Shown: positions 7,152 through 28,130 of the stretch, piece by piece
Layout: each line of letters begins with the position of its first letter
Numbering within the stretch: the stretch's first letter is position 1
From: a virus
DNA length: 28,130 bases
IMG/VR virus record: IMGVR_UViG_3300030202_000110
Span: 1-28,130 of that record
Reading direction: 5' to 3' (one strand)
Made by a program: the position numbers and the translations under genes
Notes under the pieces: generated by a model
The model's database searches: none
What the model was told of the DNA's origin: nothing
What the model saw: only the letters and a program-made list of their open reading frames with translations

Positions 7152-7913
7152 GTTTTACTCTGTTTTGTAATTCTAAATCTGTTTCATAACTTAACCATGT
7201 TAATGCTTCTAAAAGATTAAGCTTTGTTATTGCATCTAATTTTGATATGTCTGCATTTGTTAACCTATACATTACTCCAAACCAACTCCATTTTTCTGCG
7301 AAGGATTCTGAGGCAATTGCTTCTTCATTTCCTTCAGACGTTCCATTAAATATAATGGCAAAGTCTTCAACAATTCGTTTCCTAAATTGTAAAAAAAAAC
7401 CAGTGCACTTTGCACTTGCTCTGCTGACATCTTCTTCATTTCCTCCGCCCTTATACTTATATTGCCGTCATACGCTTCAATAATATAAATATTATTCTTT
7501 TCTTCTACAATTGGTCTATACAGGATAGCCATTAATTCTGGTAAATTATTATCAATGTCATTCTTAACAAATGTTTCTATGTCTGCAAACTCACCTAGCG
7601 TAATATCATCTAAGTTCGGATGAAAGCCATATCTCTTACCCTCTATTTCAATTATCCTTTTTAAAGAACTATCTTGCTTCTCTTGAAGCTCTGCAATCTT
7701 TCCCATTAATACCGCAACATCTTTTAATTCCAATTGACTAAGCAAATTCTTTGGAATGTCAGACAATGCTGCTATTGTATCTTTCGCCTCTTCACTCTTT
7801 GTACCCTTTTGATAATCAATTAGCTTTAACCACTTCTCTAATGTTACTTCTTTCCAGCTACTAATTAATTTAAATTCCTTCTTCTCGCCCTTCTTCTTAA
7901 TTTTAACCTTCAT
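7135..7913 (-). CDS. Tail assembly chaperone GT fusion made by -1 frameshift (about 259 aa)
   Basis: The -1 frame is open from the T9 tract (7399-7391) to TAA at 7137-7135. It encodes about 85 extra residues, including SFAEKWSWFGVMYRLTNADI and TWLSYETDLELQNR. This Trp-rich segment looks like the T domain of chaperones in related phages, and it lies mostly upstream of the only ATG of this frame (7272). So frameshifting, rather than independent starting, should make the domain. The 45-codon frame 7135-7272 could also be translated on its own from the TAATG overlap. G and GT share about 174 residues. Confidence 0.65.
7272..7913 (-). CDS. Tail assembly chaperone, G-like (213 aa)
   Basis: This is the upstream member of a lambda G/GT-type pair, which coats the tape measure during tail assembly. 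The N-terminal part is Lys-rich, followed by SWKEVTLEKWLKLIDYQ and a helical body. Residues about 165-185 (QVQSALVFFYNLGNELL) are typical of Bacteroidetes phage chaperones. A run of nine T (7399-7391) crosses codons 171-174. A -1 slip there opens a second frame that continues to 7135. The normal frame ends TAA at 7274-7272, inside TAATG. A copy of the repeated late motif lies directly before the start. Confidence 0.7.
   Translation of the reverse strand: MKVKIKKKGEKKEFKLISSWKEVTLEKWLKLIDYQKGTKSEEAKDTIAALSDIPKNLLSQLELKDVAVLMGKIAELQEKQDSSLKRIIEIEGKRYGFHPNLDDITLGEFADIETFVKNDIDNNLPELMAILYRPIVEEKNNIYIIEAYDGNISIRAEEMKKMSAEQVQSALVFFYNLGNELLKTLPLYLMERLKEMKKQLPQNPSQKNGVGLE
7391..7400 (-). promoter_or_regulatory. 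Slippery sequence for -1 ribosomal frameshift (G followed by T9)
   Basis: On the minus strand the codons read GTT TTT TTT TAC. A tRNA-Phe pair on TTT TTT can slip back one base and read TTA next. Both frames stay open for about 40 codons downstream, which is unusual in AT-rich DNA. Confidence 0.65.
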
Positions 7914-7915
7914 AT

Positions 7916-7930
7916 ATTATATAATAGAAA
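7916..7930 (-). promoter_or_regulatory. Repeated late motif copy (before tail chaperone)
   Basis: The minus strand reads TTTCTATTATATAAT, 2 bases before the ATG of the chaperone gene at 7913. The same 15-mer occurs before TerS. It overlaps the -33 region of the divergent plus-strand promoter. A promoter here would give an almost leaderless mRNA; a role in translation is an alternative. Confidence 0.5.
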
Positions 7931-7962
7931 TTGTTGTTATTTAGTTTAATAGTGTATATTTG
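7931..7962 (+). promoter_or_regulatory. Plus-strand Bacteroidetes-type promoter P1
   Basis: TTG (7931-7933) and TATATTTG (7955-7962) are separated by 21 bases, matching the TTG / TAnnTTTG consensus of Bacteroidetes housekeeping promoters. It points right, against every gene of the genome, toward the hairpin at 7992-8055. Confidence 0.6.
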
Positions 7963-7991
7963 CCGTTAGTTTGTATTCATTTTTACTTTTG
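7959..7991 (+). promoter_or_regulatory. Plus-strand Bacteroidetes-type promoter P2
   Basis: TTTG (7959-7962) and TACTTTTG (7984-7991) are separated by 21 bases. The octamer TACTTTTG is identical to the -7 box of the early minus-strand promoter at 16328-16321. A start a few bases downstream would fall in the left arm of the hairpin. Confidence 0.6.
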
Positions 7992-8055
7992 AAGGGGAGT
8001 AGAACATTCTATTTTTTAAATTATTATATCTTCTTTCTGACTACTCCCCTTTTTT
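7992..8055 (+). terminator. Long-loop hairpin with T6, terminator for the plus-strand RNA
   Basis: The arms AAGGGGAGTAG (7992-8002) and CTACTCCCCTT (8041-8051) are perfectly complementary over 11 bp with a 38-base loop. On the plus strand six T follow (8050-8055), overlapping the TerL stop codon. On the minus strand the right arm is followed by A-rich DNA, so it is not an intrinsic terminator for terL. Confidence 0.5.
7995..8055 (+). ncRNA. Predicted small RNA between terL and the tail operon
   Basis: The RNA is predicted from tandem plus-strand promoters and an immediately following hairpin with a T tract. P2 gives an RNA of about 60 nt whose 5' end (GGGAGTAG) pairs with its 3' end (CTACTCCC). 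P1 gives about 90 nt. No ATG occurs between the promoters and the terminator, so it should be noncoding. The 38-base loop is AT-rich with a pyrimidine-rich end (TATCTTCTTTCTGA). I do not recognise an RNA family. Possible roles are regulation or packaging, given the location at the terL end. The coordinates are approximate at the 5' end. Confidence 0.45.
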
Positions 8056-9256
8056 ACTGCACAAAATATTTACCTGCATTAGGATTGTCTAAATGATATG
8101 TAATTGCATATCTCACTCCATCAATAGCATGATTCCAATTATCAATGTATAACTTTGACCCCTTGTCTTGATATGCGTAATTGTTTAGCTCTTTAGCTAT
8201 ATTGGTTGATTCAGGTGTTATGACTAAGTGATAATCTTGCATTCTTGTTATACCACTTTCAATAGTTCCCTTTTTAACAGGCTTTATGTTTACTCCCAAA
8301 TGCTTTAAGTCTGCTATTAGTCTAGGCTCGGCACTATCCGCTATAATTAACTTTTGCTCTACCTTTTCTAATATTAGCTGTGCTAAGTCATGTGACTTTA
8401 ATCCGTTCTTGTATATGTGTTCTTTTAAATATATCTTTTGTTTCTTTTTATCAATAGCTACTTCTGTTAAACTATCAGGATCAACACTAAATCCAAAGTC
8501 CATACCGCATGACGTTTGTAATCCATCAGGATTAAATTCGCCTATACTCCAATTATCAAACACAACACCTTCTGCTCGTTCTAACCAACCACCCATGATT
8601 TTATGCTGATACTTTTTAAAGTTGTTATGCTTTATGGTCTCTATACGTTCTAGGAAGCTCTTAGAGAGGTTTTCTTTGTTGTCTAGGTATGTACTATGGA
8701 TATAGCATACATTGTCTCTAACGCCATTAAAACCAGCTTCAACTCCTTTGTCTTCAAAGAATCTTTTGTATATCCAATGCTCTTTAGTAACAGGATTTAA
8801 TATAAGTATAATTCTGTTCTGTATTTCCTTCTCTCTAATACTTAAATCAATTGTGTCAAATATATCTTCGTCAATTAATTCTTCTGCCTCATCAAGAACC
8901 CAGTTGGATACGCCTGTCAATGATTTTAAACTTGCTGTTTGATTTCCTGCTGACGTTTTGATCCCTCTAAATAAAATATCAGACTTGTTCTTTAAATTGA
9001 CAACCTCAGCTTTATTTACGCTAAATATACTCTCATATCCTAATAGTGTTATCTTTTCTAAGAACTCAGGTATGATTGATAGGTGTGCTGATACCATTGT
9101 GTACCTTGTAAACAATACTCTAATGTTTCTTGACATTGTAAGTAATGTTAGAAAGACTGTAACAGCAAAAGACTTACCAGAACCCCTACCACCTGTTATT
9201 ATGTAATAACGACAGTTAGACGTAAATAATGGATTGTATTTCTCGCTAAGATTCAG
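8054..9256 (-). CDS. terL: Terminase large subunit (400 aa, CTG start)
   Basis: This is the DNA-packaging motor ATPase and nuclease, of the PBSX/Terminase_3 type. Counted from CTG at 9256, Walker A is GGRGSGKS (22-29), Walker B is WVLDEAEE (119-126), a coupling region follows at LILNP, and the nuclease acids are GMDFG (D253), IADSAE (D307) and HAIDG (D379). The first ATG in this frame is at 9136, which would remove Walker A. No ATG, GTG or TTG lies between the in-frame TGA (9262-9260) and Walker A. CTG gives the family-like N-terminus [M]NLSEKYNPLF. The gene overlaps the TerS stop by 11 bases. Confidence 0.9.
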   Translation of the reverse strand: MNLSEKYNPLFTSNCRYYIITGGRGSGKSFAVTVFLTLLTMSRNIRVLFTRYTMVSAHLSIIPEFLEKITLLGYESIFSVNKAEVVNLKNKSDILFRGIKTSAGNQTASLKSLTGVSNWVLDEAEELIDEDIFDTIDLSIREKEIQNRIILILNPVTKEHWIYKRFFEDKGVEAGFNGVRDNVCYIHSTYLDNKENLSKSFLERIETIKHNNFKKYQHKIMGGWLERAEGVVFDNWSIGEFNPDGLQTSCGMDFGFSVDPDSLTEVAIDKKKQKIYLKEHIYKNGLKSHDLAQLILEKVEQKLIIADSAEPRLIADLKHLGVNIKPVKKGTIESGITRMQDYHLVITPESTNIAKELNNYAYQDKGSKLYIDNWNHAIDGVRYAITYHLDNPNAGKYFVQ

Positions 9257-9531: not shown

Positions 9532-9546
9532 ATTATATAATAGAAA
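9532..9546 (-). promoter_or_regulatory. Repeated late motif copy (before terS)
   Basis: The minus strand reads TTTCTATTATATAAT, beginning next to the NinB stop and ending 28 bases before the terS ATG. It is identical to the copy before the tail chaperone. I infer a promoter that starts packaging and tail gene expression. Confidence 0.5.
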
Positions 9547-9930: not shown

Positions 9931-10568
9931 AATAGTTCAGTTTGATTAACATTCTCTTTTTTTACTATTCCTAACATAGTTTCAAATATTGATTTACCTA
10001 CTTCATAATCAACAAGGTTTCTAGCAATTTTTTGAATTGATTGATTCCCTTTATATTTTTTAAAATTGTAATCGTGAAATTCACACCATTGTACTACTTC
10101 ATTTTTACTTTCCATTATGCCACCCTTTCTTTCATCTAAATCATAAGGTAAAATAAAATTAGTCCAATACAAATGTCTACCTCTTTTATGCGCTTTAATT
10201 AATGGTTCATAGTATGGGATTACGTTTTCTACTACATATTTTGCTTTAACCCATTTTTGTAAAAATAATATTTCTTCGTAAAGCTTCATGTCTGGATAAG
10301 CTGGTCTTGTTGTTTCTCTTCTTGCAAATCTAGCTCTTGAATGTGTGGGGCAAGGTGGAGAACTCCATATAAAGTCATAATCTTTATAATTGTCTAACAA
10401 GTATTGGTGTGCATCAGCTATTACAACTTTATCATTAGGAAATCTTTCTTGATATAATCTTGCACACTCAGGATCAAGTTCTACTGCTGTTACTTCAATA
10501 TCATCTTTTACTTCGTTCCATTTATAACGATTTCCTCCAAGACAAGCGTATAGGTTAAGTATTTTCAT
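9927..10568 (-). CDS. DNA cytosine-5 methyltransferase (213 aa, compact)
   Basis: The protein shows C5-MTase motifs in order: I LNLYACLGGNR (4-14), the acidic ELDPE (30-34), IV SSPPCPTHS (69-77, catalytic C73), VI VVENV (112-116), and VIII-like HKRGRHLYW (127-135). The C-terminal GNQSIQKIARNLVDYEVGKS may be motif X. It is shorter than typical enzymes (over 300 aa), with little room for a target-recognition domain. It probably modifies phage DNA against host restriction. The gene is coupled by a 4-base overlap to the HTH gene upstream. Confidence 0.8.
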   Translation of the reverse strand: MKILNLYACLGGNRYKWNEVKDDIEVTAVELDPECARLYQERFPNDKVVIADAHQYLLDNYKDYDFIWSSPPCPTHSRARFARRETTRPAYPDMKLYEEILFLQKWVKAKYVVENVIPYYEPLIKAHKRGRHLYWTNFILPYDLDERKGGIMESKNEVVQWCEFHDYNFKKYKGNQSIQKIARNLVDYEVGKSIFETMLGIVKKENVNQTELF

Positions 10569-11689: not shown

Positions 11690-11777
11690 TTTTGACTGCG
11701 TAATATGGTTCTCTCCAATCTGGGTGTTTAAAACCAAATTGCATAAAAAATAGGTCGTGTGTTTTTGGGTTATACAT
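11682..11777 (-). CDS. 31-aa frame, probable N-terminal part of the zinc-knuckle protein
   Basis: ATG at 11777 overlaps the stop of the sigma-like gene (TAA at 11772-11770). The product is MYNPKTHDLFFMQFGFKHPD followed by WREPYYAVKSE and TAA. Its regular composition and its position directly in front of VPNNVYEDR suggest one ancestral protein. Removing one T at the TAA (GAA TAA G to GAA AAG) would join the two parts as SEKFFVPNNV. A +1 frameshift, a sequence error or a true split are all possible. Confidence 0.45.
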   Translation of the reverse strand: MYNPKTHDLFFMQFGFKHPDWREPYYAVKSE

Positions 11778-12351
11778 CTTCATTTAATTCTTTTTTTAAA
11801 ATTGTTCTTACTTTGTCTATTGTTGTAAATATACTATTTCTGCTTATACCAGTCTTTGCGGCAAGTGAATCGAGAGTCTCTCCGCTATAATAAAGTTTAA
11901 ATAATTCACGATCATACCAAGATTCTAATTTGTCAAGCTCTACGTCAATTAATTCTAATTTATATAAAGACTTATTATGACTGACATCTTCTTCCTTATT
12001 AGGTAAATTATAAAGATGCTTGTTTGGTATAACTTCTCCAGTTTCAATCACGTCATAAGTTATTGTACTTGTAAACTCATCTATGTGCGTATAGTATTTA
12101 TCAAACTTATAATAAAAATTGCTACGCTTACTTGTCAAAGACCTTCGTAGTGCAACCGCACCATATCTTATCAATCCTTCTAAACCATCTTTTTCATATA
12201 TATTTGTAAGGGTTTCAGGATTCATTTGTAAAAAATAAAGCATAAGTTCTTGTACTGCTTCATTAACTTTGTTTTCATCAGTTGTAATACCATAAGCCAT
12301 AGTCCTAAACTTATCTGTTAGCTTTGATATTTTAACGTAAATATCAGTCAT
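11770..12351 (-). CDS. Sigma-70-like transcription factor (193 aa)
   Basis: The N-terminal half is helical with a region-2-like layout (KLTDKFRTMAYGITTDENKV, QELMLYFLQM, RYGAVALRRSL). The C-terminal part (about 135-190) looks like region 4: LDKLESWYDRELFKLYYSGE, then TLDSLAAKTGISRNSIFTTI, a helix-turn-helix. This resembles sigma-like proteins of Bacteroidetes phages. I infer that it redirects host RNA polymerase to phage promoters, with the repeated TTTCTATTATATAAT motif as candidate target. It overlaps its upstream neighbour by 8 bases. Confidence 0.6.
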   Translation of the reverse strand: MTDIYVKISKLTDKFRTMAYGITTDENKVNEAVQELMLYFLQMNPETLTNIYEKDGLEGLIRYGAVALRRSLTSKRSNFYYKFDKYYTHIDEFTSTITYDVIETGEVIPNKHLYNLPNKEEDVSHNKSLYKLELIDVELDKLESWYDRELFKLYYSGETLDSLAAKTGISRNSIFTTIDKVRTILKKELNEDV

Positions 12352-16320: not shown

Positions 16321-16354
16321 CAAAAGTAAAAAGAAATATTGATTATTAACACAA
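16321..16354 (-). promoter_or_regulatory. Early promoter (Bacteroidetes type, TTG-N23-TACTTTTG)
   Basis: On the minus strand TTG (16354-16352) and TACTTTTG (16328-16321) are 23 bases apart, within the range reported for Flavobacterium promoters (TTG / TAnnTTTG). A second box, TAACTTTG (16369-16362), lies upstream without a clear -33. The first early gene starts at 16291. This is the only strong host-type promoter on the coding strand that I found in a gap. Confidence 0.6.
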
Positions 16355-17389: not shown

Positions 17390-17875
17390 TTATTTATTTT
17401 TGATTATTAAATTTATATTTGTGCCTCCCAAATTTATAATTTCTTTCATAAGTAAATCCATAGCTAAAGTTGAATTATGAACAATATTTTGTTGACTACC
17501 TTGTCCAACGAGGATACATCCTCTAGTGTCTTTAGCTGTATTGCCTCTGTGAAATAATATATATGAGCGGTCTTTTACATCTTGAACTAATAAGTGCAAA
17601 TAGTTTCTTGTAGCACTTTCTCTAGCGTATCTTAATCTTACTTTATATTCTCCTAAAGGGATGCAAGATACACTTCTTTGATTATCTCTATATGGTAACT
17701 CTAAAGTATCGCAAAACCTTTCACCATTAACAAATAACTCACCGATAGTAGACTCATCAGTAAAGGTATCACGAATGATTAAAAGGTTTATGTTGTTAGG
17801 CTTAGAGATAGTAGGTTTTATAGATTTTGCAGCCTTTAACTTCTTTAACAAATTCTTGACGCATTTTAACCACAT
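17390..17875 (-). CDS. DUF5675 protein, candidate cell-wall enzyme (161 aa)
   Basis: Residues about 33-160 match DUF5675: RDTFTDESTIGELFVNGERF, CDTLELP, CIPLGEYKVRL, then FHRGNTAKDTRGCILVG (H109, C120). The H-x-GN...D-T-x-GC pattern resembles the His/Cys active site of YkuD-type L,D-transpeptidases, so I infer activity on peptidoglycan. The gene is flanked by holin-like genes, and no other lysozyme, amidase or peptidase is visible in the genome, so it may replace the endolysin. The first 30 residues are basic and overlap another frame. Confidence 0.6.
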   Translation of the reverse strand: MWLKCVKNLLKKLKAAKSIKPTISKPNNINLLIIRDTFTDESTIGELFVNGERFCDTLELPYRDNQRSVSCIPLGEYKVRLRYARESATRNYLHLLVQDVKDRSYILFHRGNTAKDTRGCILVGQGSQQNIVHNSTLAMDLLMKEIINLGGTNINLIIKNK

Positions 17876-17930
17876 TATCTTTGTTTTTGTTATACTTTGG
17901 GTTTGTGCTATTTAGCTTAGTCTTCTTCAT
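17802..17930 (-). CDS. Doubtful 42-aa frame overlapping the DUF5675 gene
   Basis: ATG at 17930 is in ATGA overlap with the stop of the Cys-rich 31-aa gene. The product is very basic (MKKTKLNSTNPKYNKNKDNV) and its last 25 codons overlap the DUF5675 gene in another frame. It fills an otherwise empty 50-base gap. It may be real or only carry ribosomes to the next start. Confidence 0.3.
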   Translation of the reverse strand: MKKTKLNSTNPKYNKNKDNVVKMRQEFVKEVKGCKIYKTYYL

Positions 17931-22494: not shown

Positions 22495-22509
22495 ACTATA
22501 TAATAGAAA
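22495..22509 (-). promoter_or_regulatory. Repeated late motif copy (before the adhesin-like gene)
   Basis: The minus strand reads TTTCTATTATATAGT, one base different from the terS copy, ending 2 bases before the ATG at 22492. It follows an intrinsic terminator, so the gene block downstream needs a promoter here. This is the best positional argument that the motif is a promoter. Confidence 0.55.
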
Positions 22510-27941: not shown

Positions 27942-28130
27942 TTAAACTTTCATTTCATAAAGGTTAAGAGTACAACTCCATTCTATTTCCATAAATCTAC
28001 TTCCTGTGACTTCAATGTGCATATCGTTTGTACCACTAAATGCAACTGCTGCTGTCCACCCTGTTACAGTTCCAAAACTACCTAATGTTGAAACTGATTG
28101 ATTATCTGCCTTTAAATACGCTATCCCTGT
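27942..28130 (-). CDS. Tail fibre / adhesin, C-terminal part (continues from 1..734)
   Basis: This is the 3' end of the fibre gene. The frame at 28130 equals the frame at position 77 of the window, because 28054-28130 repeats 1-77. The last residues (MEIEWSCTLNLYEMKV) form a beta-rich ending, with TAA at 27944-27942. The tape-measure gene starts 11 bases further on. As an isolated piece it looks like a 63-codon open end without a start codon; it should be joined to 1..734. Confidence 0.75.
   Translation of the reverse strand, partial: TGIAYLKADNQSVSTLGSFGTVTGWTAAVAFSGTNDMHIEVTGSRFMEIEWSCTLNLYEMKV
28054..28130. repeat. Right copy of the 77-bp terminal overlap
   Basis: This is the second copy of the first 77 bases, with one synonymous mismatch at 28059. 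It lies inside the fibre coding sequence and keeps the reading frame, so it is more likely an assembly overlap of a circular map than a physical terminal repeat at a module boundary. Confidence 0.93.

Follow-up and report, generated by a model that had tools for sequence, protein, structure and literature searches.

Introduction

The pRNA of phage phi29 is a noncoding packaging RNA encoded by a phage, and its conserved fold is essential for packaging. A layout like that of the locus reported here is known from the OOP RNA of phage lambda (pO-oop-tO), a short RNA that is transcribed against its neighbouring genes from a promoter of its own and stops at a dedicated hairpin terminator where an opposing gene ends; 52 of its bases overlap the cII coding region (PMC5869508). 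The sar RNA of phage P22 and the aQ RNA of lambda are likewise phage-encoded antisense RNAs controlling phage genes; they have known target genes and belong to temperate phages (PMC12197685).

From Bacteroidota, short noncoding units have been mapped experimentally as the Rfp series of Flavobacterium psychrophilum. These are chromosomal, with a median length of 176 bp, and phage is not mentioned in the main text of that study, in which TAnnTTTG was described as the main sigma-A promoter box (PMC9723704). Promoters of Flavobacterium johnsoniae have a -7 element, TAnnTTTG, whose six defined bases scarcely vary, and show little of a -33 element; the RNA begins 4-5 nt past the -7 (PMC6847099). Neither Bacteroides nor Flavobacterium is mentioned in a review on small RNAs of phages from 2025 (PMC12197685), so that regulatory RNAs of Bacteroidota phages seem hardly described. 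Within the literature searched, the coverage of which was incomplete, no report of the unit or of the late motif presented here was found.

The window, meaning the whole analysed stretch of 28,130 nucleotides from an IMG/VR virus record, had been given a preliminary description that proposed a dedicated plus-strand small-RNA unit between terL and the tail operon. Comparison with the same gap in relatives strongly supported this proposal, and a real plus-strand unit for an untranslated RNA of about 89 nt very probably exists. In its sequence features, and in these only, the unit is like lambda OOP in that it has its own promoter, a short RNA and its own terminator at the 3' end of an opposing gene (PMC5869508). 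Unlike OOP, the predicted RNA extends no further than the terL stop codon, has no coding overlap beyond it and thus lacks a feature that defines OOP, and its promoter is of the Bacteroidota sigma-A type, whereas that of OOP is of the sigma-70 type. The unit therefore resembles OOP but is not claimed to be a member or homologue of it.

Genomic context

The ends of the 28,130-base record are near-identical (1-78 and 28053-28130, about 78 bases with one mismatch), and the genome is therefore probably complete and circularly closed. An ORF survey of the window placed all long ORFs that are consistent with genes on the minus strand, in agreement with the earlier statement that every protein gene lies there. 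The terminase large subunit gene terL (8054-9136, minus strand) was recognised by matches to Terminase_3 (E 3e-28) and Terminase_3C (E 2e-14), and the first gene downstream of the gap (7272-7913, minus strand) by a profile match to phrog_32199, to which no function is assigned. The gap between these two minus-strand genes spans 7914-8053.

Window TerL is 64% identical to the TerL of the Nonlabens phages P12024S and P12024L. Together with the promoter type, this identity suggests that the host is probably a marine flavobacterium or at least a member of the Bacteroidota. A search of bacterial genomes with TerL, undertaken for the host, gave a single match, a contig in a metagenome-assembled genome labelled Euryarchaeota. 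This 29-kb contig (L362) is a relative of the window phage and probably a misbinned phage contig.

A putative promoter and terminator opposite to the genes

The -7 element of the putative promoter P1, TATATTTG (7955-7962, plus strand), is of the Bacteroidota sigma-A type and fits the -7 measured in F. johnsoniae. Since transcription starts 4-5 nt after the -7 in that organism, the start from P1 is predicted at 7967/7968. A weak -33-like TTG (7931-7933, plus strand) lies 21 nt from the -7 and overlaps the region of a divergent late promoter; it corresponds to part of a -33 TTTG element and is not kept in relatives, much as the -33 is hardly evident in F. johnsoniae. With 53 occurrences against 46 expected, TAnnTTTG shows no enrichment in the window, and a generic sigma-70 scan is uninformative for Bacteroidota-type hosts. 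P1 is not convincing from one genome alone, and it is the relatives that supply the case.

Two tandem host-type promoters had been reported for the gap. The letters of both, the gap length of 140 bp, the 11-bp perfect hairpin and the T6 run could all be confirmed in the sequence, and P1 stood up to comparison, as its -7 is kept in relatives. The second candidate, P2, did not. Its -7-like TACTTTTG (7984-7991, plus strand) is present only in the window and in its closest relatives L001, L002/L081, L003 and L361, and its -33 box is the -7 box of P1 (TTTG at 7959-7962, followed after 21 nt by TACTTTTG). By the 4-5 nt rule, transcription from P2 would start at 7996/7997, within the 5' arm of the hairpin, and would destroy the stem. 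P2 is hardly conserved and its start would fall inside the stem, so it was rejected as a second promoter and is probably none; the RNA of about 60 nt with a base-paired 5' end that had been predicted from it is not supported.

The predicted terminator hairpin (7992-8051, plus strand) consists of an 11-bp perfect stem with the arms AAGGGGAGTAG (7992-8002) and CTACTCCCCTT (8041-8051) and a loop of 38 nt, which the preliminary description had not given; in many relatives the loop measures 3-15 nt. The T run (T6, 8050-8055, plus strand) lies partly on the complement of the terL stop codon (8054-8056) and shares two T with the stem, so that the structure may be counted as a 9-bp stem with six T or as an 11-bp stem with four T. 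With a GC-rich stem and, immediately behind it on that strand, a run of T, the structure has the hallmarks of an intrinsic terminator. The folding energy of the hairpin is -17.9 kcal/mol, lower than in all 100 of 100 shuffles (z -2.7), and P1 with this terminator forms the strongest promoter-plus-terminator pair of the window.

Two other readings of the gap were rejected. The hairpin was not accepted as a terL terminator on the coding strand, as its T run is on the wrong strand, and the ATG of a small coding-strand ORF in the gap is not conserved. In several relatives, a coding-strand stem with a T-rich tail is seen upstream of the head late promoter.

Relatives with and without the unit

Gaps between terL and the next gene were collected from 135 loci with the TerL family of the window (family 1), which gave 79 distinct sequences. 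Among these, 64 gaps are long, and all of them carry TAnnTTTG opposite to the genes. What they share is the opposite-strand TAnnTTTG, then a leader rich in A and U, a GC stem whose sequence differs from gap to gap and, at the terL stop codon, a run of T. Both the stem and the T run, which ends at that stop codon, were detected in nearly all 64; L086, L098, L102, L105, L124/L125 and L136 remained under the automatic hairpin criterion, with stems nonetheless visible. The other 15 gaps are short (36-52 bp) and contain neither promoter nor hairpin, and in them the late promoter is fused to the terL stop. As promoter and hairpin are missing together, they appear to be inherited or lost as a single unit.

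Antisense TAnnTTTG was present in all 61 long gaps tested, compared with 5 of 61 on the coding strand and about 20% of shuffled gaps; TA and TTTG were invariant and the nn bases variable across these gaps, which fall into about 19 clusters and are hence not independent. The z score of the hairpin had a median of -2.75 over the same 61 gaps and was below -2 in 52 of them. The fraction of T after the stem was 0.81 on the plus strand versus 0.35 on the coding strand (61 variants). Hairpin alignment was done by MAFFT, which is not structure-aware; 29 distinct outer stems occur in the relatives, including both GGGG..CCCC and CCCC..GGGG. In hairpins of the C type (e.g. L018, L104 and L130), the loop motif TTGTCGT is kept and the remaining loop is variable. 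No recurring phage site was found for its complement, ACGACAA.

A second TerL, of 390 aa, was found beside the same next gene at 79 further loci. In this family 2, many gaps were delimited by a set length wherever the late motif was missed or degenerate. The canonical unit is present in 44 of its distinct gaps, in six the hairpin is kept and the -7 is degenerate (TATATTCG or TATTATTG), the gap of L316 holds other sequence, and the remaining distinct gaps are cassette-free. About 10 gaps of family 2 lack both promoter and hairpin and have, like the short gaps of family 1, the late promoter fused to the terL stop. Over 105 distinct relatives, TA and TTTG are fixed and nn is variable, the pattern of a Bacteroidota sigma-A -7.

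The preliminary description had made its candidate depend on conservation of the promoter boxes and the stem. This was borne out for the -7 and for the layout of the stem, and not for the -33 TTG or the stem sequence. A stem whose sequence is free to vary, and which a few relatives pair with a degenerate -7, might suggest a mere terminator, in which hairpin and T run block stray antisense transcription into terL and TAnnTTTG is incidental. This is very unlikely, because the -7 is found in 61 of 61 gaps and in another 44, fixed at precisely those bases that the consensus defines, and because promoter and hairpin vanish together.

In complete genomes of relatives, the unit is usually the strongest promoter-terminator pair, and four genomes with short gaps have no such pair there. 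Pairs of moderate strength are also present elsewhere in Bacteroidota phages; strength alone is thus no proof, and the argument rests on conservation.

The clean loss in many relatives shows that the unit is dispensable. This bears on the earlier suggestion of a packaging-related RNA, such as one like phi29 pRNA, and also on the idea of a DNA site of the pac or cos type at the terL end. In favour of such an element, the unit always adjoins the terL stop codon. Against it, many relatives without the unit keep an intact terL and the tail operon, the unit adjoins two quite different TerL families, and stem, loop and length (44-95 nt) vary, with no Rfam match at the gathering threshold. Compared with phi29 pRNA, which combines a conserved fold with universal presence beside the packaging motor, the unit is merely near terL, is often absent and has no conserved fold beyond the terminator. 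A packaging role is consequently disfavoured and appears extremely unlikely.

On a TerL tree of 97 family-1 genes, the distribution of the cassette needs at least six changes, of which three are forced by well-supported branches. One relative, L361, combines a family-2 TerL with a cassette of the window type, which indicates that the cassette recombines independently of the TerL type. This, the clean presence or absence, and the additional plus-strand protein genes with their own early-type promoter that L003 and L023 bear in the same place would fit a moron-like mobile cassette, that is, a self-contained insert of promoter, RNA and terminator at a hot spot, with a benefit unrelated to its neighbours. 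Such a cassette would account for spread but not for action, and it leaves unexplained the overlap with the late promoter and the small number of fixed distances at which this occurs; it is considered unlikely. An origin as a mobile cassette can be compatible with a role in cis or in trans.

The extra proteins of L003 and L023 (77 and 73 aa) are unlike each other, and their genes lie between the small-RNA terminator and terL. They carry an TATATTTGTACCAT promoter, and in L023 the terL end is duplicated.

The predicted RNA and its leader

The predicted small noncoding RNA of about 89 nt (7967-8055, plus strand) would extend from the P1 start to the T run at the terL stop. The corresponding RNAs of relatives have predicted lengths of 44-95 nt, with a median of 60. 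The statement that the RNA has no start codon is right insofar as its 89 nt or so leave no room for an ORF of useful size. A search of the window against Rfam gave nothing at the gathering threshold and a single sub-threshold match, rox2, on the other strand with 27 bits versus the 55 needed; tRNA and tmRNA searches gave no match.

The 5' leader (7967-7991, plus strand) is AU-rich and mostly unpaired. In most relatives, GTTTT stands at positions 5-9 past the -7, which coincides with the predicted 5' end of the RNA: among 105 distinct cassettes, 103 have T at position 9, 96 have T at position 8 and 62 have G at position 5. The early promoter of the phage itself, TACTTTTG TACCAT (16321-16328, minus strand), is without GTTTT. 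Relative to fourfold sites of terL, divergence is about 2.4-fold slower in leader and hairpin and about fivefold slower at positions 5-9, in a comparison that used only pairs aligning at a level of at least 60%, which biases it towards conservation, and in which cassette swaps by recombination are possible. The slow divergence supports selection on leader and hairpin and is no clean measure of it.

The main rival to the role in cis proposed below is a trans-acting small RNA, in which the AU-rich GUUUU leader would pair with mRNAs of the host or the phage or would bind an RNA-binding protein of the host, and the position next to terL would be incidental. The 5' GUUUU is kept (the leader is often GUUUUCAU or UUCAUUUUAGUU) and diverges slowly, some leaders are complementary to a start context of the type AACUAAAAUGAAAA, and similar units are found elsewhere, in P12024S/P12024L and upstream of head genes in freshwater contigs. 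The complement of the start codon is, however, absent from many leaders, the best hybridisation energies with phage mRNAs in 19 genomes were about those of shuffled leaders with none consistently above background, and the freshwater units came from a search pattern that demanded GTTTTCAT. Action in trans is possible on this evidence but somewhat unlikely.

A late-promoter-like motif and possible control of the terL/tail junction

Upstream of the tail operon, a late-promoter-like motif, TTTCTATTATATA (7918-7930, minus strand), is divergent from P1 and overlaps it. The same motif is repeated on the minus strand before other late genes, at 9534-9546 (a small gene upstream of terL) and at 22497-22509 (the head operon), and its full form is AAATAAA-N8/9-TTTCTATTATATA. 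Of the exact copies of the motif in 22 related genomes, all but one are on the coding strand, and most have an AAA(C)TAAA box in front of them. From this distribution, the motif has the appearance of a late promoter. The ATG comes so soon after the core at two of the three TTTCTATTATATA sites that the mRNA may be leaderless.

A sigma-factor-like protein is encoded at 11770-12351 on the minus strand (phrog_1740, E 7e-4), and the protein at the corresponding place in P12024S is annotated with Sigma-70 region 2. Perhaps it is this protein that reads the late motif.

The spacing from the -10-like core of the late promoter to the -7 of P1 is 33-36, 45-47 or 57-58 nt, with none between, in 102 cassettes. 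These three classes lie about 12 nt apart. They are counted in favour of a role in cis, but common descent could account for them as well as helical phasing.

Because P1 and the late promoter before the tail genes diverge and overlap, and because any read-through mRNA from terL into the tail operon would be complementary to the RNA, control in cis of the terL/tail junction is proposed, tentatively, as the most likely role. Host RNA polymerase with sigma-A would fire P1 early in infection and produce the untranslated RNA of about 89 nt. Its synthesis would run against every phage gene and stop at the intrinsic terminator at the terL stop codon, which would keep P1 transcription out of terL. Polymerase on P1 would compete with firing of the overlapping late promoter and oppose read-through from terL, and the RNA itself would be fully complementary to the terL-tail read-through mRNA. 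Once late transcription by the phage takes over, the tail promoter would win; until then, the tail operon would be kept separate. Counting against a role in cis, look-alike units are not antisense in Nonlabens phage P12024S and in the freshwater phage L173. The explanation as a whole, with an early RNA made by the host, control in cis and an OOP-like layout, is favoured with moderate confidence from the sequence comparisons.

Similar units in other phages

Other units with promoter and terminator were noticed outside the terL gap. In Nonlabens phage P12024S (L363), a host-type promoter, an GTGTTTTT leader and a strong terminator are found at 10174-10250, and the same is present in P12024L; this unannotated unit lies between holin and gp15 and is co-directional with them. 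A second antisense promoter-terminator unit, possibly with an extra 5' hairpin, is located at about 17783-17880 of G012 (L258/L259), between a small-terminase-like gene and a DNA methyltransferase gene. In Bacteroides phage SJC10 (L368), within a gap that contains no genes, TAATTTTG is followed at 28894-28965 by an CTTTTCATTTTT leader and by a terminator that is very strong (-26 kcal/mol).

A wider idea would be a widespread family of minimal small RNAs in phages of marine Bacteroidota, made early by the host polymerase and directed in trans at mRNAs of the host or the phage, which spread as an RNA-only moron across TerL types and genome positions. Its features would be a length of 44-95 nt, a 5' GUUUU, an AU-rich leader and an interchangeable terminator stem. 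Such a family is regarded as improbable.

Implications

More than 100 different relatives keep the unit or have lost it cleanly, and it therefore looks like a real regulatory element and not like a product of chance. The unit occurs in more than 100 distinct variants and with two terminase types, its start and end are precisely predicted, and the cassette-free relatives provide natural controls. It thus offers a directly testable case for how such phages may switch to their late tail genes.
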